Made by a program: the position numbers and the translations under genes. Shown here piece by piece: positions 29,671-45,483 of a stretch of 64,000 nt of DNA; position 1 is the stretch's first letter; each line of letters starts with the position of its first letter. The notes beneath the pieces are model-generated. The model was given only the letters and a program-made list of their open reading frames with translations. It was not told the DNA's origin and made no database searches. The stretch is from assembly GCF_026094475.1 (NCBI RefSeq), contig NZ_JAPELL010000001.1, forward strand, positions 310,001 through 374,000, written 5' to 3'. Source of the stretch: Homoserinimonas sedimenticola (GTDB lineage Bacteria; Actinomycetota; Actinomycetes; Actinomycetales; Microbacteriaceae).

Positions 29671-31115
29671 CTAGTGAGCCCATTTCGGGAATCGATGCCA
29701 TAGAGACCTCTCTCGCTGATCTTTACGAGAACGCTCCGAGCGGATACCTCTCGATCACCCTGGATGGGGTGATCGTGCGCGTCAACGACACCTTCTTGGC
29801 GATGAGTGGGTACACACGCGACCAGCTTGTCGGCGCGCCGCTGCTGTCGCTTCTGAGCCCGGGCGGGCGACTCTTCTTCGAGTCGCGTTTTGTCCCGACG
29901 CTTCTTCTCGAGGGAGATATCCGTGAGGTTGCGTTGCCTCTTCAACATGCCTCGGGTGATCCCCTCCCGATTCTTGTCAATGGGCTTCTTGTAACAAACG
30001 ACGAGGGGCGTCGCGTCGCCATCCGCATGGCTGTCTTCGAGTACAGCGGCCGGAAGGAGTATGAGAGGGAACTCCTCAACGCGCGGCGAAAGGCCGAGGC
30101 GTCCGAGACGCGCTTGCGCTTGCTGCACGAGGCGGCTGGGCGGTTTGGCGCCGCAGACAGTGATGAGAGTCTCGCTGAGGAGTTGGCCGCCAGTTTGCGG
30201 AAGGCGTTCGCGGCACGAGAGGTTGCCGTGTACCTGCGCGAGGACGCGGACAGCGCGCATCTCGCCGCCGGGGCACCCCTTCTCCAGGCGGAGCTTCACG
30301 CCGAAGGCGGCCCTGTCGAGCAGGCGATGCGCGGCGAGCGGGTCGTCACGGTGGGCGGCGCTGAGGAGCTGACATCCTGGGCTGCGGAGGCTGCCGGGGC
30401 GATGCGCGCGGTTCGCGTCGAGAGCGTGGCAGTGGTTCCCATCCTCGGGCAGCAGAAGGCGCAGGGCGTCGCCGTCATGTTCTTCCGGAGAACGCGTCGC
30501 TTCGACAGCGACGAGACGGACCTGAGCATGACTTTTGGGCGGCAGGCCGCCGAGGTGCTCACGCGGCTCCGCGTTGAGCGGCTTCTGGAGCGTAGCGCGC
30601 TCTATGACGAGGTCACGGGGCTTCCGACCCGACGCCTGATCGGCGCCCGCGTCAACGAGACGATCGATGCCGCGAGGTCTCGCAAGCGGCCGATGGCGCT
30701 CGCCACGGTCACCCTGGACGGTCTCAAGAGCATCTACGCCACGTTCGGGCAGGTGGCCGGGGATGAGGCGCTCACGGAGATCGGCGCTCGCCTCGCCCAT
30801 ACGGTGCGGCACGGTGATCTCGTCGGCCGGCTTCGCGAAGACGAGTTCGTGCTCATCTGCCCGGGCGTGGATGAGGAGTCGGCGAGAGAACTCGTGGATC
30901 GTTTGCTCGCTGCCCTACGCCGCCCGCTGCAGGCGGGGGATGGCGAGCAGACGGTTGCGTCGAATGTTGGTGTGGCCGTCTATTCGGGTGTCGACGGAGC
31001 TCGCGTCTCGTCGCAGAAGCTCTTCGAGCTCGCGGGGGCGGCGATGTATCGCGCGAACAGTGCGGGAAGAAATCAGGGCTCCATCATTGCCGTCGGGGAG
31101 TCAGTCTCCCTCTGA
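29667..31115 (+). CDS. PAS-GAF-GGDEF sensor protein with degenerate GGDEF motif
   Basis: 482 residues. A PAS domain (about 17-125, LYENAPSGYLSITLDGVIVR), a coiled-coil linker (about 128-155), a GAF-like domain (about 155-300) and a GGDEF-fold domain (about 310-475, opening YDEVTGLPTRRLI). The active-site loop reads REDEF (390-394) instead of GGDEF and the substrate-binding Asn-Asp of the FKxxND helix is replaced, so diguanylate cyclase activity is unlikely although metal-site Asp351 remains. Translationally coupled to the RsbQ-like hydrolase, which suggests the PAS domain receives the hydrolase signal. The last 15 bases overlap the convergent epimerase gene. Confidence 0.88.
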   Translation: MTSEPISGIDAIETSLADLYENAPSGYLSITLDGVIVRVNDTFLAMSGYTRDQLVGAPLLSLLSPGGRLFFESRFVPTLLLEGDIREVALPLQHASGDPLPILVNGLLVTNDEGRRVAIRMAVFEYSGRKEYERELLNARRKAEASETRLRLLHEAAGRFGAADSDESLAEELAASLRKAFAAREVAVYLREDADSAHLAAGAPLLQAELHAEGGPVEQAMRGERVVTVGGAEELTSWAAEAAGAMRAVRVESVAVVPILGQQKAQGVAVMFFRRTRRFDSDETDLSMTFGRQAAEVLTRLRVERLLERSALYDEVTGLPTRRLIGARVNETIDAARSRKRPMALATVTLDGLKSIYATFGQVAGDEALTEIGARLAHTVRHGDLVGRLREDEFVLICPGVDEESARELVDRLLAALRRPLQAGDGEQTVASNVGVAVYSGVDGARVSSQKLFELAGAAMYRANSAGRNQGSIIAVGESVSL

Positions 31116-31964
31116 CGACGGTTCGTCACGCCACGAGTGGGTCGGCTCGTAGCCGAGCAGTCGCCGCGCCTTGTCCACCGAGAAGAGCGAAGAGCGTCCT
31201 TCGATCCGAGTCCTGCACTCGAGCGCCGCGAGGTTGCCCGTGAGGAGTTCCTCGGTCGGTCGCAGCATGACAGTGTCTGCCGCCGCGATGATGAATGGCT
31301 CGAAGCCGCGGATGTCGCTTTCCAGTGCCAGCCGCACGGCCTCGGCCCCGTCCCGCGCATCGATATAGCTCCAGAGGTTCCAGGCCCGCAGGGCGGGGTC
31401 ATCCTGCCACTCCTCGAAGGCGGCGTAGTCCTCGGGCAGCATGACGTTGGAGTAGCGGAGGCCGATGATCGAGAGCTCGGGATCCCAGCGGGCAAAGTGA
31501 GCGGCCATCTCCTCGTCGACGGCCTTGCCGAGCGAGTAGGAGGTTTCAGGGCGCACCCGATACTCCTCGTCGACGGGCAGGTAGGGCGGAGGGGTATCGA
31601 AGGGGAGCCCGAGCACGGTCTCGCTCGACGCCCACACGACCTTCTTGATTCCGGCGACCCGCGCCGCTTCGAAGACGTTGTGGGTGGAGATGACATTGTT
31701 GGCGAGCAGGTGCGCATTGGTGGTGAGCCCGGGAGCGGGTATCGCCCCGAGGTGCACGACCGCCTCGGCGGCACTCCAGCGGTCGTGCACGCCTGTCAGC
31801 GCGCCGAGCACCTGCCCGAAGTCGGTGAGATCGACCACCGTGCTCGGCACTCCGAGCGAGGTGGGGACGCGATCGACGGCCGCGACCTCGTACCCCTCAG
31901 CGTGGAGATGGGCGACGACGACGCGTCCCAGTTTTCCAGCGGCGCCGGTCACGACAACTCTCAT
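31101..31964 (-). CDS. NAD(P)-dependent epimerase/dehydratase (extended SDR)
   Basis: 287 residues. Rossmann glycine motif VTGAAGKLGRVVVAHL at the N-terminus, VVHLGAIPAPG, WASSETVLG, and catalytic Y-x3-K in TSYSLGKAVDE. A sugar-nucleotide epimerase, uronate dehydrogenase or similar reaction is possible. The ATG at 31964 has a -10 box TAGCGT six bases upstream. It is the last backbone gene before the genomic island. Confidence 0.87.
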   Translation of the reverse strand: MRVVVTGAAGKLGRVVVAHLHAEGYEVAAVDRVPTSLGVPSTVVDLTDFGQVLGALTGVHDRWSAAEAVVHLGAIPAPGLTTNAHLLANNVISTHNVFEAARVAGIKKVVWASSETVLGLPFDTPPPYLPVDEEYRVRPETSYSLGKAVDEEMAAHFARWDPELSIIGLRYSNVMLPEDYAAFEEWQDDPALRAWNLWSYIDARDGAEAVRLALESDIRGFEPFIIAAADTVMLRPTEELLTGNLAALECRTRIEGRSSLFSVDKARRLLGYEPTHSWRDEPSSEGD

Positions 31965-31970
31965 GCGGCC

Positions 31971-31976
31971 ACGCTA
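31971..31976 (-). promoter_or_regulatory. -10 element TAGCGT of the epimerase gene (leaderless)
   Basis: TAGCGT, six bases, then ATG at 31964 on the minus strand. Its presence shows the epimerase promoter was not disturbed by the island to its right. Confidence 0.5.
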
Positions 31977-32060
31977 CCCCCGAATCCAGGGGCTCAGCCG
32001 TTCACAATGTCCTGAGGCATCCCAGTGGTGGCTGAGCATGGTCCAGTTTCGGGAGATAGG

Positions 32061-32151
32061 ACGTCCGCAGCGAGACGCTCCGCAGCCAGACGCTCTGAGA
32101 GCACGAAAAAGCCGGCCATCAGAGAGCTCTGATCGCCAGCTCGATTCCGTG
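32061..32151. repeat. Island boundary repeat, distal copy
   Basis: About 90 bases matching 45309-45400 with scattered substitutions and one single-base indel near the end; the longest identical core is CTCTGAGAGCACGAAAAA. It contains a hairpin equivalent to the tRNA-Leu terminator but no tRNA sequence. Interpreted as the far attachment-site copy. Confidence 0.7.
32106..32140 (-). terminator. Rho-independent-type terminator in the distal repeat
   Basis: ATCAGAG/CTCTGAT stem extended by GGC/GCC, followed on the minus strand by five T residues. It would end transcription of the hydrolase gene whose stop is at 32258. Confidence 0.6.
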
Positions 32152-32257
32152 GGAGGTTCGGACTATCCATCTCGGCCAGCGCCTGCAGGGGAGCGGGGAG
32201 GTGGACCCAGGGGCGTTCCACGCCGCAACTCGTGAGATTCCACACAGGGCGCCATTG

Positions 32258-34066
32258 TCAGTGCTCTTGAGGGGGGACACCAGGTTCGAGACCGTTGTCT
32301 CGCATAAACTTGAGGGCCCGTTCGACCGCGGTGATCTTTCTCTTGAGTTCCTTAAGAGAGGATGCTGAAGCGTCAGAAAACTCGTCAAGACGCTCGTGTT
32401 GACGCCGCACTTCAATCTCCGTCTCGACGAGGTTTCTCCACACCGCCCGGTCTTGGGGGATCCGCTGCGATTTTCGAAGGATTTCTGCGGCCAGCTGGCG
32501 CTCAACGACCGCCTCAAGTGTCTCCGCGGTAGTCCCAGGACTGGCCAAGCCGAAGGCGATGCCGCCGCCGCCTGCTCCAATGAGGGTTCCGGCTGTTAGC
32601 AGGCCCCCAACCATGCCACCAGGTCCGAAGGCCGCCAGTGCACTGGTGATCGCCGCTGCTCCCGCTAGGCCGGGCGCGGCGGCGAGCGCCAGCCCGCCGG
32701 TGGCAATAACGAGCGCGACAGCTCCCACGCCGAGAGCTCCCCATTTGATCCAGGTCTTCCCCCGCCCGCCGCTTAAAACCTCTTGCGCCTCTTTCGCCGC
32801 TACGAACACATCCGTGCCGAAGCGGGTTCCTAGACCCATTTCCGCGCTGAGCTCTTCCATCGCGGCTTGCCACTCATCCTTCCCGATGGAAATTTCGAAG
32901 GGGCGGATGACGTTCTCGGACGCAAGGACCGTCAGGAAGACCACCGCGTCTTCTTTTCCAATGTGCGCGCTCGGGAGCGGCTCAGGCACGACAGCGCGGG
33001 GGTCCGAAAGATCAAATGCGAGACGTGCGATCTCTGAAGGCATCGGGCGGCGCTCGCTGATGTTTCTCCTTTTGATGTCATCTACGACGGTCGCGTGTAC
33101 TCGTCGAAGTGCGCCAGAAAAGCGATCCTGGAGTTCGCCCTTTAGTCTCGCCTTTAGAAGATGGGCATAGCGGAGCGCTAGGAGGGCAAGTCGCTCCGCG
33201 GCATCCAAGGGGATGTCGAGACCCTGCTCGACGCGGGCGACCTCCTTGGATTTCGACCCGAACAGCGCGAAGCCGATAGCTTCGGCAACGGCGTCGTCTG
33301 CCAGATACTCCGCCGCGTCATGGGCGTGGTGGAGCTGCTTCGTAGAGTTGATCCGAAAGTCAACGAGCCATGGAAAGACTGACGAAAGACCCCGGTGAGC
33401 GGCCACGGGGTCGAGCGCGTTCCAGAAATTCACCCACCATGCCAAATTTGCAGGCGGTTCTTCTAGTGAATTCCGCAGCTTGTCGACATCGAAGTTCCCG
33501 TTCGCTAGCGGGCTGCCCATCGTTATCATGCCGACGACTTCGAGACCGATCGGGAGACGCCGGAGCAGGTCGGCAGCGATCACTGATCCGAGGCTGTGGG
33601 CTACGACTACGAGTCGTCCGGTCTCAGGCAAAAGTCCAAGGATGCGCGTCAACACCTGGGCCCGAACCTCGGGCTCTTTAATATACTTCTGCGCCTGAAC
33701 GAACTGAGGCAGGAACATCGCCCCGTCGATCAAAGCGTCGCCAGCAGCGTGGCCGCTGCCATGATCGTGCCGACCAAGCCTGAACTCGACGGCGCCCATT
33801 CGCCGCTCGAACTCCCGGCGGTTCCTCCTTGCTTCCTCACGTGAAGGCCGCTTGATCGTCACCTCTGGCAGCGGGACCTTGTCATCCCAGCCCTTTAGAG
33901 CATGCGCGTACTTTGGGGCCACGACCGACACCGAATCCAGACTCGCGTAGCCCAGACGGTTCAGAGCATCGGCAAGATGGCGCTTCCATGTGTCGTTCTG
34001 ATCGCCGTCCCCAACCCCGTGTAGGAACAGAAGGACCGTCGGTTCATTCAACAATTGAAGCTCCAT
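32258..34066 (-). CDS. Large alpha/beta hydrolase with glycine-rich membrane segment
   Basis: 602 residues. The N-terminal third is an alpha/beta hydrolase: oxyanion stretch LLFLHGVGDGDQ, nucleophile elbow VVVAHSLGSVIAA with Ser158, and LDPVAAH near 218-224 as a candidate acid/His region. A long central helical part follows. Residues about 439-507 form a Gly/Ala-rich hydrophobic segment that could span or lie in the membrane, and the last 95 residues are charged and helical. Function not recognised. A lipase or protease effector acting at the membrane would fit its place in a defence island, but that is inference. Codon use is less GC-biased than the backbone. Confidence 0.75.
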   Translation of the reverse strand: MELQLLNEPTVLLFLHGVGDGDQNDTWKRHLADALNRLGYASLDSVSVVAPKYAHALKGWDDKVPLPEVTIKRPSREEARRNRREFERRMGAVEFRLGRHDHGSGHAAGDALIDGAMFLPQFVQAQKYIKEPEVRAQVLTRILGLLPETGRLVVVAHSLGSVIAADLLRRLPIGLEVVGMITMGSPLANGNFDVDKLRNSLEEPPANLAWWVNFWNALDPVAAHRGLSSVFPWLVDFRINSTKQLHHAHDAAEYLADDAVAEAIGFALFGSKSKEVARVEQGLDIPLDAAERLALLALRYAHLLKARLKGELQDRFSGALRRVHATVVDDIKRRNISERRPMPSEIARLAFDLSDPRAVVPEPLPSAHIGKEDAVVFLTVLASENVIRPFEISIGKDEWQAAMEELSAEMGLGTRFGTDVFVAAKEAQEVLSGGRGKTWIKWGALGVGAVALVIATGGLALAAAPGLAGAAAITSALAAFGPGGMVGGLLTAGTLIGAGGGGIAFGLASPGTTAETLEAVVERQLAAEILRKSQRIPQDRAVWRNLVETEIEVRRQHERLDEFSDASASSLKELKRKITAVERALKFMRDNGLEPGVPPQEH

Positions 34067-34344
34067 ATTCCGCGATCCCCTCGAATCGGCGCACTTCTAA
34101 GACTCCGCGGTCAGAATACAGATTCAGCGAGTGCGGAGCCCCTGTCGATGCCTCGGTAGACGTTTGTGACCTGCACCGGCTTGAGGACCGTGGTACTGCC
34201 AAAACTGAACGGTGTGAGTCAGAGAAGCCCGGATGCGCGTTTATCCATAGCTGGCCGAAGGCTGAGGCCATCCCCTTGTCACCGCCGACACCACTTGCAC
34301 GACCAAGGTGAGCCTCGGCACCGATTAATCGAAGACGCCCCCGC

Positions 34345-34350
34345 TAGCAT
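34345..34350 (+). promoter_or_regulatory. -10 element TAGCAT of the Mrr-like gene (leaderless)
   Basis: TAGCAT, six bases, then GTG at 34357. The remaining 34067-34344 interval between the two divergent genes shows no convincing gene or strong secondary structure. Confidence 0.5.
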
Positions 34351-34356
34351 TGCCCC

Positions 34357-35241
34357 GTGGCCAATCGACTTTCGGTTCTCTCGAAGCAAATCCGCGATGC
34401 GGATCCCACGCTCACCACAGACGAGCTGCACTCTTTCGTAGCGGGAGTTGCTAAGCTTGCCGGCTCGATAGGGGAGGAAGCTGGGGACGCATTCGAGACC
34501 CTGCATGAGAATCTCGTCGCCGCGATCTTGCTTCTTCTTGACCTTGCAGATGACGAGCTACTCGGCATCCAGCTGCGAATAACGTGGGCGAGTGAGTACT
34601 CGAAGTCGCTCATCAAGGTGATGTCGGCACAGAATGACCGTCTTCCGGCCGAGCTCGACGAACGAAAAGCAGAGATCGCGCGACGCGATGCGGCCCGCGA
34701 GACATTAGCTGTAAAGTCTGCGCCGAAAATCAGCTCGCTGCTTGAACCGATACTCAATGCCGCTCGCGACCTCGCGGAGAACAGTCCTTCGGTAAGCACG
34801 TCGCTCATTGCCTCCGAACATCCAGCGCCGAAACCCCAGCTGTATGGCGTCTCAGCGCGAGGAGCAGAGCTGTGGGTGGCCGACGCGCTCCGCTGGCTAG
34901 GTGTGCACGGAGTTGAAGTCACTCAGCAGACTTCAGATGGCGGCGTCGACGTTCTCACGAAAGACTTTGCGGTCAGCGTGAAGCACTATTCCGGCGCTGT
35001 TCCCGTGGAGGAAGTGCGCGAGATCTTCGGTGTTGCCACCGTCCTCAAGAAGGTCCCCATGCTGTGGACCAGTGGCACCTTGACGGGTTCGGGATCCGAG
35101 TTTGCTGAGATAGCTCCGGTTGCTGTTTTCCAGTATGAGGTCGAAACCGCGACGATCTTTCCTGCGAATCTGCCCGCCCAGGAGCTCTTCGATGGCGGCT
35201 TTGTGCCCCACGGAGATGCAGTAGAAGCTCTCGAAGCCTGA
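34357..35241 (+). CDS. Mrr-like restriction endonuclease-fold protein
   Basis: 294 residues. The N-terminal 150 residues are helical with no known domain. The C-terminal domain fits the Mrr/PD-(D/E)xK fold: E171 in ARGAELWVADALRWLG, the metal Asp198 in DGGVDVL, then AVSVKHYSG with Lys209. In typical Mrr proteins the motif is QxK; here Ser207 replaces the Gln, leaving the Asp and Lys. Type IV enzymes of this class cut modified DNA. Divergent from the membrane hydrolase gene with 290 bases between starts. Confidence 0.8.
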   Translation: MANRLSVLSKQIRDADPTLTTDELHSFVAGVAKLAGSIGEEAGDAFETLHENLVAAILLLLDLADDELLGIQLRITWASEYSKSLIKVMSAQNDRLPAELDERKAEIARRDAARETLAVKSAPKISSLLEPILNAARDLAENSPSVSTSLIASEHPAPKPQLYGVSARGAELWVADALRWLGVHGVEVTQQTSDGGVDVLTKDFAVSVKHYSGAVPVEEVREIFGVATVLKKVPMLWTSGTLTGSGSEFAEIAPVAVFQYEVETATIFPANLPAQELFDGGFVPHGDAVEALEA

Positions 35242-35525
35242 CCGATCCACGTTCCGCTCGTCGGGATCTGAAACCTTTGCGGAGTTTCCGACCGGTGCAA
35301 TAGTCCCTCCCGGTTGCTCTGCTTTGCTGAACTTGGGCGCACCACTGGTCTCCACTTCACGCGCAATCAACTACGACCGCCAGCGAAGGACAATGCCTAG
35401 GCGCGAGCACGCGTAATGAGGCCGGTTTAGGAAAATGACCAACCCCGGAAGAGGAGCCTGACCGGAGCCTGATCCGCTTTTCCGTACACCTGACTTGAGG
35501 TGGTGATTGCCTCAGAGAGGAGTCC

Positions 35526-35987
35526 GTGATGCCTGCTGCTCACCCGCCGGAGTTCCGGCGTCGGGCCCTGGATTTTGTTGCGCAGGGCAACCCGGTCGTG
35601 CAGACCGTTCGTGACCTTGGGATCAGCAAGTCGTGCTTACGGAACTGGATGAACCGCGACGCGGTCGACTCCGGCCGCAAAGCCGGGATCACGACCGACG
35701 AGCACAAGGAACTCGTCGAATTGCGCCGCCGCAATCGCGCGCTGGAAATGGCGAAACCGTCCGGGAAACCGGGTCAGGTTCCCATTGTCGAGTGGCGAGT
35801 TCCTTCCGGGAGCATTGCGTCCACAAACGATGAATCGTCGCCGATTCCTCCTTCATCCTCGATCGGCATCTATGGGCGGCACGATGCGAGGCACAGTCGC
35901 GTTTTGAAGCGTCTGCGTCCAAGCGTTGCGATAGACGCGAGGATGCGCAGCGGTGAGGACGTAAGTGCTGTTGTCAGGGCGCCGTAG
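35526..35987 (+). pseudogene. IS3-family transposase (OrfA-like) remnant
   Basis: The first 75 residues are a normal IS3/IS911-type OrfA: MPAAHPPEFRRRALDFVAQG, then a helix-turn-helix ending in SKSCLRNWMNRD and the leucine-zipper start ELVELRRRNRALEM. After that the sequence loses similarity, and a plausible OrfA ending (REHCVHKR then stop at about 35833) is found in another frame, showing a frameshift. The catalytic OrfB (DDE) is absent; only about 150 bases remain before the next gene. The interval 35242-35525 before it has no gene. Confidence 0.65.
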
Positions 35988-36034
35988 ACGCGATTGCTGA
36001 GTACCTGACCGGGAACATTGGTAGCTTCGTGGCT

Positions 36035-36919
36035 TCAGAAATCGAACGGCCCCAGCTCGCTGCGCCAGAAAGCTTCCTCGGCTCTTGACCGCGCGGATTC
36101 GAGCTCCTCATGGCTCACGGGAAGCTTGGACAGGTCGAGGGAGAAAAGGGGGAAAGGCCAGTGCTCGGCAACTTCTTGAAAGTCTTCCTGGGCCGCGTTC
36201 TTCCCATATAGTCCTCTATCGATGATCTGACCGGTGACCCTGCTATTGATCTCAAACAGTTCAGCGAACGTCATCTCATTGGTGACCACGACACCATTCC
36301 ACTCGGCGCTGGCGATAGAAAGCCCAGCTTCTGTCAGCAGGCCAATGCGAGAAATCGCGCACACTAGGTCAGCAGTAATTGTTGCAGGCCAATGCAGTGA
36401 GGAGTAGGTGTCGCGTGGTGTAACCCAGGCGTAGTGGTTCTCCTCTTTCACGTAGTCGACGTACACGGCTAGCTCCCGTGAAGTCTCTATCTCATTGCGA
36501 AAGATCCAGTCAGCATCGTTCGGTCCGTCGAGGTACATCTCAGGTCGCAGCAGCTGCACGTAATTGTTTGTCTCGCCGAAGGTCCCTGGGTTTGTCGCGG
36601 TAACGCGCTGATAGATACCCCGCGCGAAGTGACTACTGAAGTAATTCAAGCGGCGTCTCACTTCAGCTTGCTCCGTCCAGCCTCCTCTAACAACATCTAG
36701 GATGATGAGCACCTTCGCCGCTTCTTCCCCCATTACAGATTCGAGAATGGGACGGCCGCGATGGCCAGCCTCGTCTAGCCCATCTATCGAGGTCTGCAGT
36801 GCTTCGACATGCTCGACCAAGAGATGTAGGCCCTCAGCCAGAACGTGAATCCGTTCCTGCAGCGGTCGCGCTAGGAGGTCGGCAATGGCGCGAGGCCGAA
36901 CGGGTTTTGACCGTGCCAT
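36035..36919 (-). CDS. AbiV/HEPN-like protein, candidate abortive-infection RNase
   Basis: 294 residues, mostly helical. Features resembling AbiV-type HEPN proteins are ESVMGEEAAKVLIILDVVR (the EE-x-xK helix), an R-x6-H pair (R90 LNYFSS H97) that fits the HEPN ribonuclease motif, and SRELAVYVDY followed by a Trp-x-x-Pro type stretch (YAWVTPRD). HEPN proteins of this kind cleave RNA during phage or stress response. The C-terminal 120 residues have no recognised domain. Similarity was judged by eye, so the family label is tentative. Codon usage and base composition differ from the backbone. Confidence 0.6.
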   Translation of the reverse strand: MARSKPVRPRAIADLLARPLQERIHVLAEGLHLLVEHVEALQTSIDGLDEAGHRGRPILESVMGEEAAKVLIILDVVRGGWTEQAEVRRRLNYFSSHFARGIYQRVTATNPGTFGETNNYVQLLRPEMYLDGPNDADWIFRNEIETSRELAVYVDYVKEENHYAWVTPRDTYSSLHWPATITADLVCAISRIGLLTEAGLSIASAEWNGVVVTNEMTFAELFEINSRVTGQIIDRGLYGKNAAQEDFQEVAEHWPFPLFSLDLSKLPVSHEELESARSRAEEAFWRSELGPFDF

Positions 36920-36994
36920 AAGGTGCTAGTCCAATCGTTCGTAGCCCATCTCCACTGGGGGAGCGTCATCGACGCAGCGCATGAATTGTCGTCA

Positions 36995-39900
36995 CTATGC
37001 ACCAGCGGCTCGCTCCGCCTCATCCCGTGACTTCTCGTACAGCCCCATCGCGACCAGCACCTTCACGAGCGGCCCGAGATTCTCCATCTGCAGCAGCGCC
37101 TTGATGCCGTCGTTATGGCCGACGGCGGAGGCGTAGATGACGTCTTCGAGTTCGCTCTCGATGGTGGGGGAGGTTTCGAAGTCGACCGGGGTATTGGCCA
37201 TCGCCTCGGCCTGGATCTTCTCGTTCTCCACCACGTGGCGCATGATCGTCTCGGTGACGGCGATGCCGTCGACTTCGCTGACGCCGGTGCCGGAGAAGAG
37301 GTCGTTGATCTTGTCGATCACGTCCTGCAGCAGCCCGTACTTCACCTCGCGCGGCTGACCCGACCCGGCTTCGGTGATGCCGGTCAGCTCACCGGACTTG
37401 CCCGGGGTGAGGCCGAGGTTGCGTGCGTCGAGCTTGCGCAGCCGGTAGTGGGTGAGCACCACCTCGTCCGTGTTGATCACCCGCGGGTCAGCATCCTGAC
37501 GCTCGATCACGCGGCGGTAGACGCGCAGGAAGATCGCCCACTTCTCGATGTCTGTGTCGCCGTAGTCGAGGATCTGCGACAGGAAGTCATACGCCCTCAC
37601 GAACGCATTAACGGTGCCGCGGAACTCCTCCAGGCGACCGATCTCCAGGTCGTCGGATGCCTCGACGGCGTCGTTCCACCGCGTCCAGAACACGTCGCGA
37701 GAGGCCTTGATGTGGGAGTAGAGGGCGTTGTGGCTGGTCTTATTCAGCCACGCGTCCACGACCCCGTCGACGTCGTGGCTGTCGATGATGTTCATGCTGC
37801 GCAGCTTCGACCGCATGGTGTGGATGATGTTCGGGTCTGACGGCTTCGTCAGGTCCGCATCCTCGTAGTAGGTCTGGAACGCGGTGAGGATCTCGTCGGG
37901 GTCGTTGACGAAGTCGAGGATGTAGGTGTTCTCCTTGCCGGGGATGACTCGGTTCAGGCGGGAGAGGGTCTGCACGGCGGTGATGCCGGAGAGCTTCTTG
38001 TCCACATACATGCCCACCAGCAGCGGCTGGTCGAAGCCCGTCTGAAATTTGCTGGCGACGATCAGCACCTGGAACTCATCCCCGCCGAACGCCGCCTCCA
38101 GCGAGCGTCCCTTCAGTCCCGGGTTCATGCTCATCTCGGTGTGCTCCTCCGCACCGGATTCCGGGTCGGTGACGGTGCCAGAGAACGCGACGAGAGCGCC
38201 CAGCTGTCCGTCGAGCTTGTTGTCCTTCAGGTACTTGTCGATAGCGACCTTGTACCGCACGGCCTCCTTACGAGACCCGGTGACCACCATGGCTTTGGCG
38301 CGGCCGCCGAGCTCGGTGCGCACGTTCGCGCGGAAGTGCTCCACGATCACCGCAACCTTCTGCGCGATGTTGGTCGGGTGCAGCCGCACCCACCGCATCA
38401 ACTCAGTGTTCGCCTTCGTGGTGTCAACTTCGACGTCTGCGCCGCCAGCGGTGTGGGCGATGGTGAAGGCGAGGTCGTAGGTGATGTAGTTCTTCAGCAC
38501 GTCCAGGATGAAGCCCTCCTCAATGGCTTGCTTCATCGAGTACAGGTCGAACTCCTTCTTCACCCCCTGCTCGTCCTCCCGCCCGAACAGCTCCACCGTC
38601 TTGCCCTTCGGGGTGGCGGTGAAGGCGAAGAACGACACCGTGCCGACCCCAACCTTGCGGGCCATCATGTCGGCCAGCACATCCTCGGCATCCACCGTCT
38701 CGTCGCCCTCGCCAGCACCTGCAGTGAGCACCTGCTTGAGGGATGCCGCAGCCTCACCCGTCTGGGACGAGTGCGCTTCGTCGGCGATGACGGCATACTT
38801 GCGCCCCGCCAGACCGGCGTTGTTCTCGATCTCGGTGAGCGCGTGCGGGAAGGTCTGCAGGGTCACGCCGATGATCTGCCGCCCGGCCAGGAGAGCGGAT
38901 GCGAGCTGCTTCGACTTTGACGCATCCCCACCCCGCGTGATCGGCTCAAACACGCCGGAGGTGGTTTCCAGCTGCTCGACGGCGCGCTGCAGTTGCCCGT
39001 CGAGGACCTGCCGGTCGGAGACGACGATGACACCGTCGAACATCTTGGTGCCATCGGGTTTGTGGAGCTGCGCCATCCGGTGCGCAGTCCACGCGATCGA
39101 GTCGGTCTTCCCTGATCCAGCGGAGTGCTGGATCAGGTAGTTGTGCCCGGGGCCTTCGTCGAGGACGGCACTTTCGAGCTTTGTGACGGCCCGCCACTGG
39201 TGGTAGCGAGGGAACCGCAGCGACCGCGTGTAGGTCTTCTTCCCGTCGATCGGGTCGGTCTTCTCCTCGAACCGGTAGTGCAAGAACCGGCCGACGATGT
39301 CCAACCAGGTCTCCCGCTCCAGGATCTCCTGCCAGAAGTACGCCGTCGGGCTCGTGCCGGGGATCGGGTCGTTGCCAGCACCGTTGCCCTTGCCCCGGTT
39401 GAACGGCAGGAAGCGGGTGTTCGCACCGTCGAGCTTCGTGGTCATATGCACTTCTTCGTTGGTGACAACGAAGTGCACCAGCGCCCCACGCCCAAGCGAG
39501 AGCAGGGGTTCACCCTCGGGGCGACGGTCCGTCGCGTACTGCTTAAGCCCGGCCTGCAGGTTCTGGGTGAGGTCGGTCTTCAGCTCGATGGTGGCGACGG
39601 GGATGCCGTTGACGAACAGGGCCAGGTCGAGCCGGTTGCCGTTCTTGGTCGAGTACTCGACCTGCCGCATCACCCGCACACGGTTCATCCGGAACCGCTC
39701 CACCGTCATTGCATTCAACGTCGTCGCCGGGCGCGCCTGGAACAGCGAGAACTTCGCATTCAGCACGCCGATGGGAGCTTTGAGGGCGGCGAGGGTGCCG
39801 CCGCCGTTCATGGTGTCGGTGGCGAGCACCTGCACGATCCGGTCGAGGACCTGCTTACGGCCTTGAGCTTGGGAGACTTCGGATGCCTCGGGCTTGACGA

Positions 39901-40069
39901 TCTTCGCCAGCTGCTCCGGCTGCGTGTCTTGGAGCCAGCCGATGATGTCGTCCTCGAACAGGCCCCGCTCGCGGTCGTAGCCGAGGTCGTCGGGGGAGTA
40001 CTCCCACCCGTGCGCCGCCAGATGCTCACACAGCTCAACCTCGAACGCGTCCTCATGATGAATCGCCAT
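36995..40069 (-). CDS. hsdR: Type I restriction enzyme R subunit
   Basis: 1024 residues. N-terminal nuclease domain with D148 and E162-x-K164 (LDLALFVNGIPVATIELKTD), the PD-(D/E)xK signature. Translocase: Walker A in IQHSAGSGKTDSIAW (K321), DEAH at about 429-432 (VIADEAHSS), FFAFTATPKGK as motif III, and KFQTGFDQPLLVGMYVDK as motif V-VI. Together with HsdM and HsdS this cuts DNA that lacks the modification at the recognition sequence, after ATP-driven translocation. It is the last gene of the operon, 16 bases after the HEPN-like gene. Confidence 0.95.
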   Translation of the reverse strand: MAIHHEDAFEVELCEHLAAHGWEYSPDDLGYDRERGLFEDDIIGWLQDTQPEQLAKIVKPEASEVSQAQGRKQVLDRIVQVLATDTMNGGGTLAALKAPIGVLNAKFSLFQARPATTLNAMTVERFRMNRVRVMRQVEYSTKNGNRLDLALFVNGIPVATIELKTDLTQNLQAGLKQYATDRRPEGEPLLSLGRGALVHFVVTNEEVHMTTKLDGANTRFLPFNRGKGNGAGNDPIPGTSPTAYFWQEILERETWLDIVGRFLHYRFEEKTDPIDGKKTYTRSLRFPRYHQWRAVTKLESAVLDEGPGHNYLIQHSAGSGKTDSIAWTAHRMAQLHKPDGTKMFDGVIVVSDRQVLDGQLQRAVEQLETTSGVFEPITRGGDASKSKQLASALLAGRQIIGVTLQTFPHALTEIENNAGLAGRKYAVIADEAHSSQTGEAAASLKQVLTAGAGEGDETVDAEDVLADMMARKVGVGTVSFFAFTATPKGKTVELFGREDEQGVKKEFDLYSMKQAIEEGFILDVLKNYITYDLAFTIAHTAGGADVEVDTTKANTELMRWVRLHPTNIAQKVAVIVEHFRANVRTELGGRAKAMVVTGSRKEAVRYKVAIDKYLKDNKLDGQLGALVAFSGTVTDPESGAEEHTEMSMNPGLKGRSLEAAFGGDEFQVLIVASKFQTGFDQPLLVGMYVDKKLSGITAVQTLSRLNRVIPGKENTYILDFVNDPDEILTAFQTYYEDADLTKPSDPNIIHTMRSKLRSMNIIDSHDVDGVVDAWLNKTSHNALYSHIKASRDVFWTRWNDAVEASDDLEIGRLEEFRGTVNAFVRAYDFLSQILDYGDTDIEKWAIFLRVYRRVIERQDADPRVINTDEVVLTHYRLRKLDARNLGLTPGKSGELTGITEAGSGQPREVKYGLLQDVIDKINDLFSGTGVSEVDGIAVTETIMRHVVENEKIQAEAMANTPVDFETSPTIESELEDVIYASAVGHNDGIKALLQMENLGPLVKVLVAMGLYEKSRDEAERAAGA

Positions 40070-40085
40070 TGATTGTTCCCCCTGG

Positions 40086-40496
40086 TTAGCTTGCTACGAC
40101 GGTGACCGCGGCGTCGACAAGTCGGCGCGCGTGAAGGACGAGTCGGGATGCCTCCGCGTGAGTCGGGAGGCGATCGCCGTATGACTGTGCTGATTTCTCC
40201 GCCAGCAGCGCATCAAGATGCTTGGCAGTCGACGCGTTACTGGCGGATCGCAGCGCGTCGAGCGCATCGCGGTGTGCGTCGGATGAGACTTTGTAGCCGA
40301 GCACGTGGCCGCAGATTGCGTCGCTCGCGGCGATGCCAGCGCTGACCGCGATCTCGCCAGCGTGCTTCCATTCGTGTGGACTTGAGCCACCGAGTTGGAG
40401 CTCTGCGGAATCCAGACGAGTCTGCGCGTCTCGCAGACGGATGCGGACCGAAGCAGCTTCCATCGGCTGTCGCCGCGGGCTGATCCGCGGGTTCAT
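40086..40496 (-). CDS. HEPN-like small protein, partner of the MNT gene
   Basis: 136 residues, all helical. EIAVSAGIAASDAICGHVLG and the C-terminal EKSAQSYGDRLPTHAEASRL resemble small HEPN proteins that often sit beside minimal nucleotidyltransferases. A clean Rx4-6H catalytic motif is not obvious. Its ATG overlaps the stop of the MNT gene by four bases, so the two are co-translated, the usual layout of HEPN/MNT toxin-antitoxin modules. It lies between hsdS and hsdR. Confidence 0.6.
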   Translation of the reverse strand: MNPRISPRRQPMEAASVRIRLRDAQTRLDSAELQLGGSSPHEWKHAGEIAVSAGIAASDAICGHVLGYKVSSDAHRDALDALRSASNASTAKHLDALLAEKSAQSYGDRLPTHAEASRLVLHARRLVDAAVTVVAS

Positions 40497-41128
40497 GCGG
40501 CGCTCGCCCGCATCCCGGGGAGCGCGGGGCCACAGATATGGATGCCGTCGGTGAGCACGTTCGCTACGAACGGATCGCGTTCGGTGACCCTCTGCTCGAA
40601 CTCTGATCGCTCCAGCGAATAGATCTGTGCTTCGTTCCCGGTCAGGCGTTCTACATGCTCGCCGAGCCTGTAGCTGAAGTCTGCACGAGCTTCCGGGTCG
40701 AAGTAGTTCGGGAAGACGAGGAGCAGGTCGATGTCGGATTCCGCGTCCGACTCGCGGCGAGCGACCGAGCCGTAGAGGAGAAGCGTCATCCGCGCTTCCT
40801 CTGGTACTTCGCTTGGCACTTCTTCGAGACAGAACTCGCGGATGCCGTCGAGGGCGCGTGAGCGCGACTCAAGCCCCAGTTCCACGACGGGCCAGAGTAC
40901 GTGCTGGCGATTCGGGCGGTAGATGATGGCGGGCGGTCTGGATTCGGCCGTAACGAGTCCGACCCTGGCGAGATTGTTGACGGCACGGTGCACGCTGGAC
41001 GTCGAGCCGATGCCAGCGAGGGCGTGGATCTGTCTCCCCGAGAAGCCAGCGTCGGCCCGAGAGAGCACTCGCAGCACGGCGGCCTCGACTGGGCTCGTCA
41101 GCCCGTCCAGCGGTTCACTCAGGTTCAT
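40493..41128 (-). CDS. Winged-helix / minimal nucleotidyltransferase (MNT) protein
   Basis: 211 residues from the ATG at 41128. N-terminal winged helix (about 11-75: VEAAVLRVLSRADAGFSGRQ, then SSVHRAVNNLARVGLVTAES) fused to a polymerase-beta-type nucleotidyltransferase with LLYGSVARRESDAESDIDLL: G120-S121 and D132-x-D134. MNT antitoxins of HEPN pairs AMPylate their toxin; the winged helix could provide autoregulation. Followed by the HEPN-like gene with a four-base overlap. Confidence 0.85.
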   Translation of the reverse strand: MNLSEPLDGLTSPVEAAVLRVLSRADAGFSGRQIHALAGIGSTSSVHRAVNNLARVGLVTAESRPPAIIYRPNRQHVLWPVVELGLESRSRALDGIREFCLEEVPSEVPEEARMTLLLYGSVARRESDAESDIDLLLVFPNYFDPEARADFSYRLGEHVERLTGNEAQIYSLERSEFEQRVTERDPFVANVLTDGIHICGPALPGMRASAA

Positions 41129-41175
41129 GTGACGATTCTGGCACGAATGTCTCGAAAATGGAACGCACCACAGGC

Positions 41176-42039
41176 TTAGGGAACTGCACCGACGACGGGT
41201 GGTCGTTCTATGGCGTCGAGGGTGACGCCGTTGACGTCTTTCCACTCTGTCCAGCCGTTCGCGGACCGGCCTAGGACTGCCCCTGCTGCGCCAGATGGGG
41301 ACCGGAAGACGTGGTCTCGTGTGAACGCGTAGCCGTCTCCTTGTGGCGCGAGCACGCCCTGGGTGAGGAGCTGGTTTCGTCGTTCAGTGATCTTGGGCAG
41401 CCCGCTCACGACGGGGCGTGCTGCGGAGCCGGAGAACACGGTGAAGCCGGCGGAAGAGTAGTTTCCTGTCGCACGGCCGCCTTCGTGGTCGATGAGAAGA
41501 AGGCTGGTGGTGGGGGTTTCTTCGGATGAGGCGGGGACTTCAAGGAATGAGGCTCCGAGGGTTGCGAGCAGGATTTCGATGGTCTCGAAGAACTCGCGGC
41601 AATCCGCCATCACAGGGGCGGGAAGCGACCGTGCGAAGCCTACGGTGCCGTTCGTCAGTCGGTGACTGGCAGCCAGCTTGGCCTTCTCGAGCGCATCCAG
41701 TTCGAACTGCCTGGTGTGGGCTTTCGTCCAACTGTTCGTGAGAGACACAGCGACGTATGCGCGGTCCCAGAACGACTTATTCACGTCGTGCTGCGTGAGA
41801 CGCTTCGCCACCTCGTCAGACTCGCCGACATAGAGCGCCGGACGTTCATCATCGCTTTCGGCGTCTTCTCCGACCAGGAAATACACACCGGGCTGCCCCG
41901 CGAAAGGGTCGGCCACGAACTCCTTCAGGTCTGACCGGGGGACCTCGTACACTCTCACCGTTCGAGTGGTGATCTCGGCGTGCCGGAGACCCTTCGGGTT
42001 GCCGGTCGGAAGAAAGATCTGAATCGTTTGCGCTCTCAT
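41176..42039 (-). CDS. GIY-YIG nuclease family protein (DUF4357-like C-terminus)
   Basis: 287 residues. The GIY-YIG domain shows G51-V-Y (PGVYFLVGED) and Y70-V-G (ALYVGESDEVAKRL), with Arg80 as the conserved catalytic-region arginine. After about 150 residues without a clear motif, the C-terminal part (FTRDHVFRSPSGAAGAVLGR, then NGWTEWKD) resembles DUF4357, a domain often attached to restriction-modification-linked proteins. Starts at the ATG at 42039, overlapping the hsdS stop by four bases, so it is translated as part of the hsd operon. Confidence 0.85.
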   Translation of the reverse strand: MRAQTIQIFLPTGNPKGLRHAEITTRTVRVYEVPRSDLKEFVADPFAGQPGVYFLVGEDAESDDERPALYVGESDEVAKRLTQHDVNKSFWDRAYVAVSLTNSWTKAHTRQFELDALEKAKLAASHRLTNGTVGFARSLPAPVMADCREFFETIEILLATLGASFLEVPASSEETPTTSLLLIDHEGGRATGNYSSAGFTVFSGSAARPVVSGLPKITERRNQLLTQGVLAPQGDGYAFTRDHVFRSPSGAAGAVLGRSANGWTEWKDVNGVTLDAIERPPVVGAVP

Positions 42040-43288
42040 GCTTGTCCGTCTCTGACGTCGATCTTCCCGGTCACCGCCGCCGAGATCAGGGCAGCCCGCC
42101 GCTCCCGCGACAACGCGATCGCCTCGCGCCCATCTGCGACCGCCGCGTCGAGCTCTCCCACCTCTTCCTCGAGCTCGTCCGAGATGCGCTTGCGCTCAGC
42201 CGTGTCGGGCCAAGGGATCTCCATGTTGTCGAGAGTGGATCTCGTTAACTGATTAACCGTCGACGTGGAAAAAAGGCCCATTTGGGAAGAGAAGAGCGAA
42301 GAGTTGAGAACCCAACTCATGAATCGATAGTCGCGGGTGCGAAGCACGCTCATAAATGCGCCGAAGGTCTCTCCTACAGTGACATCGGTGATGATTGCGT
42401 TTTTCCCAACCAGTGCTCGGCTTCCATTTCGAGCGCAAATCAGAATGTCACCTTCTCTGGTTCGAAGCTCTGCAGGGATCAGCGAACTCACCCGAACCAC
42501 ATCCGTGCTGATGTCGATCAAACCGCGCTTGATGTTGCCAGAACGAAGCACGATCGTTCCGTCGTCGCTTTCCGTGAGGTCATCGGGCGAGTAGGTGAGC
42601 CCAATGAGCGACCTCCCGACTTGCTTTATCCGCCGCACTTCCCAGTGTCGAGGGATCGATCCGAGCCACTCAATACCGCTGTCTCTCGTCGGGGCGGTCG
42701 GGTCGAGGCCCTTGGTGACGGCGTGGCTGATCGTCGCGGCACGCCGCTCGGTGAGCAGCCTGATGAGTTCTTCCTGGTTCGCGATGAACGCGTCGATCTC
42801 CGCGGTCTCCCGATCCAGGAACTTCACTATCGCCGCCTGATCTGCAAGCGACATGTACGGGATCTTCGCCGTTGCCAGGTCCGACTGAGTCATGCTGGGA
42901 AGGGCGGTGCTGGTCACCCAGTAGGCGTAGGGCAACTGAGCCGCCCAGTAGTAAACGAAACGAGGCAGCAAGTGGTTCGTCGAAATATCGGTGTAGTACA
43001 TCGTGTCGACAGTCCAGAAGCGCCCGTTGACATGCAACGGCTTGTCTACAGTGCCCTTCCGTCCGAAGAGCACGGATTCACCCTCGAACAAATAGGACGA
43101 GGCCCGGCGAAACTCACCCCCAGATCCGTAGACAGGGTAGCCACCCTCCTCAACCTCTACAGATGCGTAGTCAGCACCGTTCCTAAAGTGAACGAATCGA
43201 CCGACGGCGCAAATGTCCCAGTCGACGGGCAGTCTGCCGAGCCATTCGACACCGCTGTCCTTGTACTCCGGGTATGGCTTGAGCTCCG

Positions 43289-43292
<4 letters not shown>
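42036..43292 (-). CDS. hsdS: Type I restriction-modification specificity subunit
   Basis: 418 residues from the GTG at 43292 (VTELKPYPEYKDSGVEWLGR). Two target-recognition halves, each opening with a similar phrase: DSGVEWLGRLPVDWD near residue 12 and DSGIEWLGSIPRHWEV near 203. Conserved spacer regions follow each half (EIDAFIANQEELIRLL and ELDAAVADGREAIALS). It binds a bipartite DNA sequence that cannot be predicted from here. The GTG overlaps the hsdM stop (GTGA). Confidence 0.93.
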
Positions 43293-45241
<1,949 letters not shown>

Positions 45242-45308
45242 GACGTGACTCTCCCCAGTGCCGCGGGTACGCAAGAGCGCGGCATGACGAGTCTGCCGGT
45301 TTCCGCCG

Positions 45309-45400
45309 ACATCCGCAGCCAGACGCTCCGCAGCGAGAAGCTCTGAGAGCACGAAAAAACCGGCTATCAGAGAGATCTGATCGCCGGTTCGATTTCCGTG
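45309..45400. repeat. Island boundary repeat, tRNA-proximal copy
   Basis: About 90 bases repeated at 32061-32151. Its right end coincides with the discriminator base of tRNA-Leu and includes the tRNA terminator. This is the natural attachment position just 3' of a tRNA gene, and the retained tRNA is intact. Confidence 0.7.
45354..45388 (-). terminator. Terminator of tRNA-Leu(GAG)
   Basis: Stem ACCGGC-ATCAGA against TCTGAT-GCCGGT with one internal mismatch and a GAGA loop, followed on the minus strand by six T residues. Ten bases separate it from the tRNA 3' end. Confidence 0.8.
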
Positions 45401-45483
45401 TCCGAGGGGGGACTTGAACCCCCACGCCCTATACGGGCACTAGCACCTCAAGCTAGCGCGTCTACCTATTCCGCCACCCGGAC
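45399..45483 (-). tRNA. tRNA-Leu, anticodon GAG
   Basis: 85 bases on the minus strand. The acceptor stem pairs GTCCGGG with CTCGGAC (one G-T), discriminator A. The anticodon stem is CTAGC/GCTAG with loop TTGAGGT, giving anticodon GAG, which reads CUC and CUU codons. A long variable arm and the TTCAAGT T-loop fit class II tRNA-Leu. The CCA end is not encoded. It marks the right edge of the island. Confidence 0.93.

Follow-up and report, generated by a model that had tools for sequence, protein, structure and literature searches.

Many defence islands carry no mobility gene, and how such islands move is a question. Several described elements offer points of comparison. CIMEs derive from ICEs or IMEs; PMC7563491 describes examples with lengths of 1.2-13 kb, and also arrangements in tandem arrays. 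By that account, the island analysed here resembles a CIME in its lost recombination genes and kept cargo and partly in its attachment-type ends, and CIME tandem arrays are paralleled by two tandem far ends in a related genome (G115); the parent of a CIME is an ICE or IME, however, whereas the parent element here differs. GInts, as described in PMC5385486, share with the present family imperfect repeats, variable cargo, a short conserved far end and, at the end next to the target, an operon for recombination, but they carry ginABCD with three integrases plus GinD, whereas here a single weak integrase-like gene and a second gene, p617, lie at a tRNA. SE elements and Tn554 are alike in their imperfect inverted repeats around a short spacer and their few fixed targets; in the account given there (PMC10214605), SEs carry intA, tfp, intB and srap, are reported only from Gammaproteobacteria and encode no DDE transposase. 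The family described below has the architecture of GInt, SE or Tn554 elements, whereas its genes appear to be different ones.

A repeat-flanked island at tRNA-Leu(GAG)

The window, by which we mean the whole 64,000-nt stretch of Homoserinimonas sedimenticola DNA under analysis, had originally been predicted to hold a block of about 13 kb between imperfect direct repeats of about 90 bases, at the 3′ flank of tRNA-Leu(GAG). The repeats are real: their two copies (32060-32146 and 45308-45394) are 87 nt long and identical at 78 of 87 positions (90%, ungapped), with only 44/87 matches at the runner-up position within the window. A 106-base query found two copies in the 2.84-Mb genome, the second matching query positions 11-102 at 89%, and beyond these just matches of 14-24 nt with E values of 0.075 or worse. 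With two genomic copies only, the repeat is not the ordinary dispersed element that had been considered as an alternative. The ends are laid out as follows, with genomes denoted by G numbers and loci by L numbers throughout.

45398..45483, minus strand: tRNA-Leu(GAG), the insertion target (ARAGORN); the same gene adjoins M20 in congeners
45394..45400, minus-strand reading: putative crossover overlap CACGGAA, tRNA side; CACGGAA is common to the far side, and bases are shared in ten islands
45308..45394, minus strand: right repeat copy, comprising the tRNA-Leu terminator and about 45 nt
32149..32244, minus strand: far-end signature, or P1 arm, in which two TGGAA repeats precede TCCGAACCTCCCAC; scored at E 1.9e-14 by a model from which the window was excluded
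32145..32151, minus strand: putative crossover overlap CACGGAA, far side (junction comparison)
32060..32146, minus strand: left repeat copy, terminator-like, with no tRNA

The copy beside the tRNA is, as predicted, a terminator at the 3′ edge of tRNA-Leu, but the repeat is not the attachment core and sits just beyond the putative crossover. It reaches only the last bases of the tRNA and so does not restore a tRNA 3′ part, which rules out a classical tRNA attachment core.

The DNA between the repeats amounts to 13.2 kb, is low in GC (56-65% per kb in the island versus 61-72% outside) and holds mostly defence-type genes. The block is inserted at the 3′ end of a tRNA, deviates in composition and occurs sporadically, all in support of the predicted genomic island with its mostly defence-type cargo. 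A PF00589 search also bore out the predicted lack of an integrase: none lies between the repeats, and the genome's three PF00589 matches are all elsewhere, although recombinases of other types could escape such a search. One of these (G000:C9:31291-31608) is a partial integrase in a 183-aa frame, and the other two are long.

Cargo of the island

Read from the tRNA, the genes are as follows.

43289..45247, minus strand: hsdM, type I methyltransferase (PADLOC MTase_I E 2.5e-274, Pfam N6_Mtase); presumed start near 45247, open frame from 45352
42036..43292, minus strand: hsdS, specificity subunit (PADLOC Specificity_I E 2.5e-93); start presumed, open frame from 43415
41176..42039, minus strand: GIY-YIG-like/DUF4357 protein, PADLOC candidate PDC-S14 (DUF4357 E 4.8e-23; PDC-S14 E 6e-87); its GIY-YIG domain scores below cut-off
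40493..41245, minus strand: MNT nucleotidyltransferase with N-terminal HTH, PADLOC candidate PDC-M05A (family matches)
40086..40496, minus strand: 136-aa MNT partner, HEPN-like by position only (homologue adjoins MNT)
36995..40069, minus strand: hsdR, type I restriction subunit (HSDR_N, SWI2/SNF2, PADLOC REase_I E 1.2e-33)
36035..36919, minus strand: AbiV-like protein (Pfam HEPN_AbiV E 1.4e-5, 25.7 bits, below the 27.1 cut-off)
35526..35987, plus strand: IS3-type transposase fragment (HTH_Tnp_1)
34357..35241, plus strand: Mrr-type restriction endonuclease (Mrr_cat E 2.3e-10)
32258..34066, minus strand: 602-aa hydrolase-like protein (weak Abhydrolase_6 match below cut-off; 72% homologue in the G117 island)

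The hsdM, hsdS and hsdR genes occur together as open frames, and the cargo is a type I restriction-modification operon with the GIY-YIG/DUF4357 gene and an MNT pair inside, plus further probable defence genes. The predicted gene content stands (HsdM/S/R, MNT, nuclease, hydrolase-like and transposase-like genes), except that the protein called HEPN has no family match in Pfam, PADLOC or NCBIfam and is an MNT partner by position. In 23 of the 29 family loci compared, its homologue lies next to that of the MNT protein, so that a paired MNT partner is a reasonable reading.

Among 80 loci with an HsdM relative (L154-L233), a GIY gene occurs in 13 and an MNT gene in two, and the full M-S-GIY-MNT-R order in one, that of Agromyces sp. 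H66 (L155), 177 bp behind a tRNA-Met. This operon has the same gene order as that of the window, but the far-end signature was not found at L155. In eight of the 80 loci a tRNA on the same strand stands less than 500 bp upstream of the HsdM relative, and in one a tRNA on the opposite strand does; six kinds of tRNA are represented. Type I systems of this sort seem to be carried often by islands at tRNAs, and those loci that were tested lacked the far-end signature.

Flanks and congeners

The tRNA-Leu(GAG) gene adjoins the M20 peptidase gene in all four congeners, and Microbacterium sp. NIBRBAC000506063 has the same order of tRNA-Leu, M20 and undecaprenyl-diphosphate phosphatase. None of the ten island genes was found in the congener stretches around the tRNA-Leu site, bar a general 33% IS3 match in G002, and the MNT protein, which was searched genome-wide, is absent from all four congeners at E 1e-12. 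Close relatives with the same genes in the same place, which would have spoken against a mobile island, were thus not seen in these four stretches. Neither was the simple empty site that had been expected, consisting of the tRNA, one repeat and the epimerase gene (0 of 4 congeners).

The flanks had been described as housekeeping. This is borne out for the left-flank haem genes, which are conserved in all four congeners and whose distance to the tRNA, measurable in three of them, is about 19-48 kb (in G001 they are split over contigs), but not for the epimerase gene to the left of the island (31101-31964), whose best congener matches have E values of 5e-11 or worse and which is therefore not genus core; in some other genera its identity is 54-64%. 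The left-flank helicase gene ends about 0.2 kb from tRNA-Leu in G006, which belongs to another genus. As contents and length vary between the congeners and G006, we regard the interval as a hotspot.

A 49-nt remnant in the window (31976-32024) matches the end of an IS481-like element of G002 at 86% identity, and was dropped as a candidate displaced terminator for that reason. The IS481-like remnant of G002 sits directly in the tRNA-Leu end with a 16-nt duplication of that end, its transposase type being judged by eye.

A far-end signature shared across genera

The terminator that stands directly behind tRNA-Leu in G001 and G003 lies 14.2 kb away in G002 (82 nt, 91% identical to G001). There it is preceded by GTCCGAACCTCCCAC, and the same 15 bases precede the left repeat of the window. 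When five genomes were scanned for this 15-mer with at most one mismatch, three had exact matches, namely the window's genome, G001 and G002; a one-mismatch match in G004 was put down to chance, the reversed control also having one, and two-mismatch matches in L038 and L077 were dropped for lack of the arm. In G001 the 15-mer, located on a contig that lacks the tRNA, precedes a terminator of the kind found beside tRNA-Leu in G004. We then searched 398 genomes of the bacterial family with a 25-base gapped pattern (at most three mismatches), which matched in four (window, G001, G010 and G260); among the matches listed, none came from the reversed control.

These four ends and that of G002 have about 97 nt in common when aligned, including two TGGAA repeats. 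A profile built from the five identified 15 of the 398 genomes at E ≤ 0.01, five of which had contributed to the profile. In ten of the 15, from seven genera (window, G002, G010, G012, G103, G110, G115, G117, G260 and G322), tRNA-Leu(GAG) lies upstream of the end, 2.3-45.5 kb away and in the same orientation. Four more (G001, G091, G156 and G261) are cut by contig ends, and the match in G148 (E 0.0046) is probably due to chance, given that a second profile is negative there and the TGGAA repeats are missing. This second profile, made from six ends with the window excluded, recovered the far end of the window and eight further ends in seven genomes beyond its training set (G115 twice, G261, G091, G117, G012, G156 and G322). 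It found none in the tRNA-Leu stretches of the other relatives scanned with it, bar a 25-nt piece of the second end of G115 (E 0.23). A match of the arm to a Curtobacterium plasmid (E 0.03) had no profile support and was treated as chance, and viral contigs held no exact 16-nt match to the far end.

In G115 a single tRNA-Leu is followed by both far ends (C1:1588878-1588965 and 1603933-1604025), a tandem arrangement that stacked insertions would produce. In G091, the contig with a far end (38571-38666) also has HsdM-, HsdS- and GIY-like genes, no tRNA and an ordinary phage-type integrase (C46:14437-15606, L275).

The cargo behind this signature varies. The 602-aa gene is common to the window, where it abuts the far end, and G117 (72% identity), where it is 1.6 kb away; in the G117 island (L270) a HipA/HipB-like pair, judged by eye, adjoins it. 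One gene, part of which is Mrr-like (37% over 129 aa), makes up most of the 2.7-kb island of G260, and the G002 island encodes a ParA-type ATPase and a CAP12/TIR protein and shows a weak NucS match. By eye, G115 apparently carries a CoA ligase, a thiolase and a transporter, and G322 a dehydrogenase and a regulator, which speaks against a purely defensive role of the family. The 45.5-kb interval of G110 may contain several elements.

Proposed crossover and junction bases

After the triplet CAC, the tRNA side and the far side agree over four bases in the window, three in G001, five in G002, three in G010, two in G260, three in G012, one in G103, 48 in G117, three in G322 and four in G110. These bases match within each genome but differ between genomes. 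The summed agreement (capped at five each) is 33, against a mean of 7.2 for shuffled pairings, and was reached in one of 100,000 shuffles (p ~ 1e-5), in a set where the genomes are related, the two sides of G001 are on different contigs and the tRNA side of G002 was read beyond the IS. G115, whose first end has no core and whose second has no tRNA of its own, was left out, as were G091, G156, G261 and G148, with no tRNA in the stretch.

On the tRNA side, the word TTCG follows nine bases after CAC in G001, G002, G010, G012, G110 and G322, and ten after it in G103 (partly by eye). At the far end the same word stands inverted, five bases from CAC, so that the ends are symmetric about a 7-bp overlap CACNNNN. 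This symmetry is the layout of a tyrosine-recombinase core, with the overlap length deduced from the junctions, and it suggests an attachment core of only about 7 bp, the rest of the ~90-base repeat being a duplicated terminator. G003 also has the TTCG arm nine bases after CAC on the tRNA side, and neither a far end nor p617 was found in its stretches searched; the arm alone is therefore no proof of an element.

A candidate recombination module

In G110, two genes named p392 and p617 form an intact operon 224 bp from the tRNA. The p392 protein matches PF00589 below cut-off (E=3e-4) and a PHROG integrase (E=3e-5), and shows one weak XerC-like match among PDB sequences; with its catalytic residues judged by eye, we regard it as a putative diverged tyrosine recombinase. 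The p617 protein has no Pfam or NCBIfam family and no PDB sequence match. Its conserved residues include D205, D332 (in DRAY) and E531, and the G110 copy has a complete Y-2-R-3-E-6-K, given as the IS4-family signature in PMC2266710; G103 and a Streptomyces relative have R-3-E-6-K with the Y not in register. On these motifs, p617 is a candidate DDE/IS4-like transposase.

In G103, p617 is intact (53%) and p392 survives as a remnant (80% over 50 aa). More widely, p617 or its 3′ part is found about 225-290 nt from the tRNA end in seven of 26 stretches of 3 kb downstream of tRNA-Leu (G110, G103, G001, G012, G322, G010 and, after subtraction of a 737-nt IS shift, G002); the window and the 18 others show no trace of it. 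These seven sites coincide exactly with the seven islands that have the TTCG arm. The window island has neither p392 nor p617, and in 17 genomes PF00589 matched nothing between tRNA and far end except the p392 of G110. A related gene pair is found on a Streptomyces plasmid, where the p392 relative is 30% identical over 300 aa (E=7e-19), and the p617 relative of this pair occurs in nine plasmid records. No p617 was found in phages, and neither p617 nor p392 in viral contigs.

Compared by description with the SE set of intA-tfp-intB-srap, G110 has a single integrase-like gene; nor was a GInt-type operon of three integrase-type genes plus ginD found there, though a very diverged GinC could escape PF00589. 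In the open-licence papers and family libraries searched, the p392/p617 module and its tRNA-Leu element family do not appear to have been described.

A 354-aa protein without a family in G002 (L045:8774-9835) has a 333-aa homologue in the G010 island, 88% identical between the two genera; it was rejected as a mobility gene because it is absent from the other islands compared. Its relatives lie on 11 actinobacterial plasmid records, and it is possibly a plasmid-type replication protein.

Discussion

Our preferred reading, to which we assign a probability of roughly three in four, is that the window island, extending from 45398 to 32149, belongs as a module-less (CIME-like) member to an element family that targets tRNA-Leu(GAG), and that it was probably inserted in trans. 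Membership follows from the far end of about 97 nt, which recurs with other cargo and in other genera downstream of tRNA-Leu(GAG). Insertion without an integrase would be explained by the window island having the family's far end and lacking its recombination module.

The ends suggest how this may have come about. The p392 protein, perhaps together with p617, would join a circular attP, made up of the P1 arm, the CACNNNN overlap and a P2 arm with TTCGGACAATC, to the tRNA end. The window ends include the P1 arm and the overlap, and the P2 arm is absent. On the tRNA side, a copy of the far-side terminator is present in three of ten islands (local scores of 129 in the window and 99 each in G117 and G260); terminator scores in the other seven are 12-28, five of them matching another genome better than their own. 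The window, G117 and G260 are exactly the three of ten without the TTCG(G) arm and without a p617 trace. One faulty excision would account for the duplicated terminator and the missing arm and module together: a donor circle would have kept the P1 arm and the donor's own terminator, lost the P2 arm and the module, and then integrated with a recombinase supplied in trans by another element, leaving one terminator at each end as the imperfect repeat. This hypothesis predicts that islands with a duplicated terminator never carry the module. As it lacks both a recombinase and the P2 arm, the window island is probably fixed now. Against this reading stand the junctions of G103 and G260, where agreement spans only one and two bases, and the first end of G115, which has lost its core.

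In an alternative scenario, p617 would be the mover and act by DDE transposition. CACNNNN would then represent a duplicated target of about 7 bp and the inverted TTCGGACAATC arms would serve as terminal inverted repeats, leaving p392 with the role of a resolvase only. The DDE/IS4-like motif, the inverted-repeat ends and the survival of p617, rather than p392, in more islands would all fit; a single fixed tRNA target with the same breakpoint bases is typical of site-specific recombinases, however, and p617 is a candidate transposase by its motifs, with no family or PDB sequence match, which leads us to consider this scenario unlikely. It is less probable still that another tRNA-targeting integrase inserted the island and was then lost, with p392 and p617 coming from other elements that share the site: most carriers do have no recognisable integrase in the island, and G091 has an ordinary integrase gene on a far-end-bearing contig, but in islands with the common far end the distance between the p617 stub and the tRNA is constant. 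Homologous recombination between conserved flanks, with the repeat a local terminator duplication and no mobile element at all, agrees with flanking genes that are conserved around a variable interval in the congeners, but is very improbable given a breakpoint at the same tRNA-end bases and a far-end sequence common to different genera.

A broader interpretation can be offered tentatively, and we hold it to be possible rather than probable: the family may be a new class of actinobacterial integrative element. A single operon beside the target would encode its IS4-like DDE protein along with a diverged tyrosine recombinase, and the two would act together at tRNA-Leu(GAG) and bring the tRNA terminator. 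They would also act in trans on a swarm of small islands without a module of their own, by which defence genes pass from genus to genus. For the trans-inserted family member that we propose here, the end signature matters in its own right, as it recognises islands without an integrase and sets their borders to the base. Through it, islands of unrelated cargo from seven or more genera are linked to a common insertion site and mechanism, and an unannotated two-gene module emerges as their likely mover; the trans-mobilisation of small defence islands becomes directly testable.
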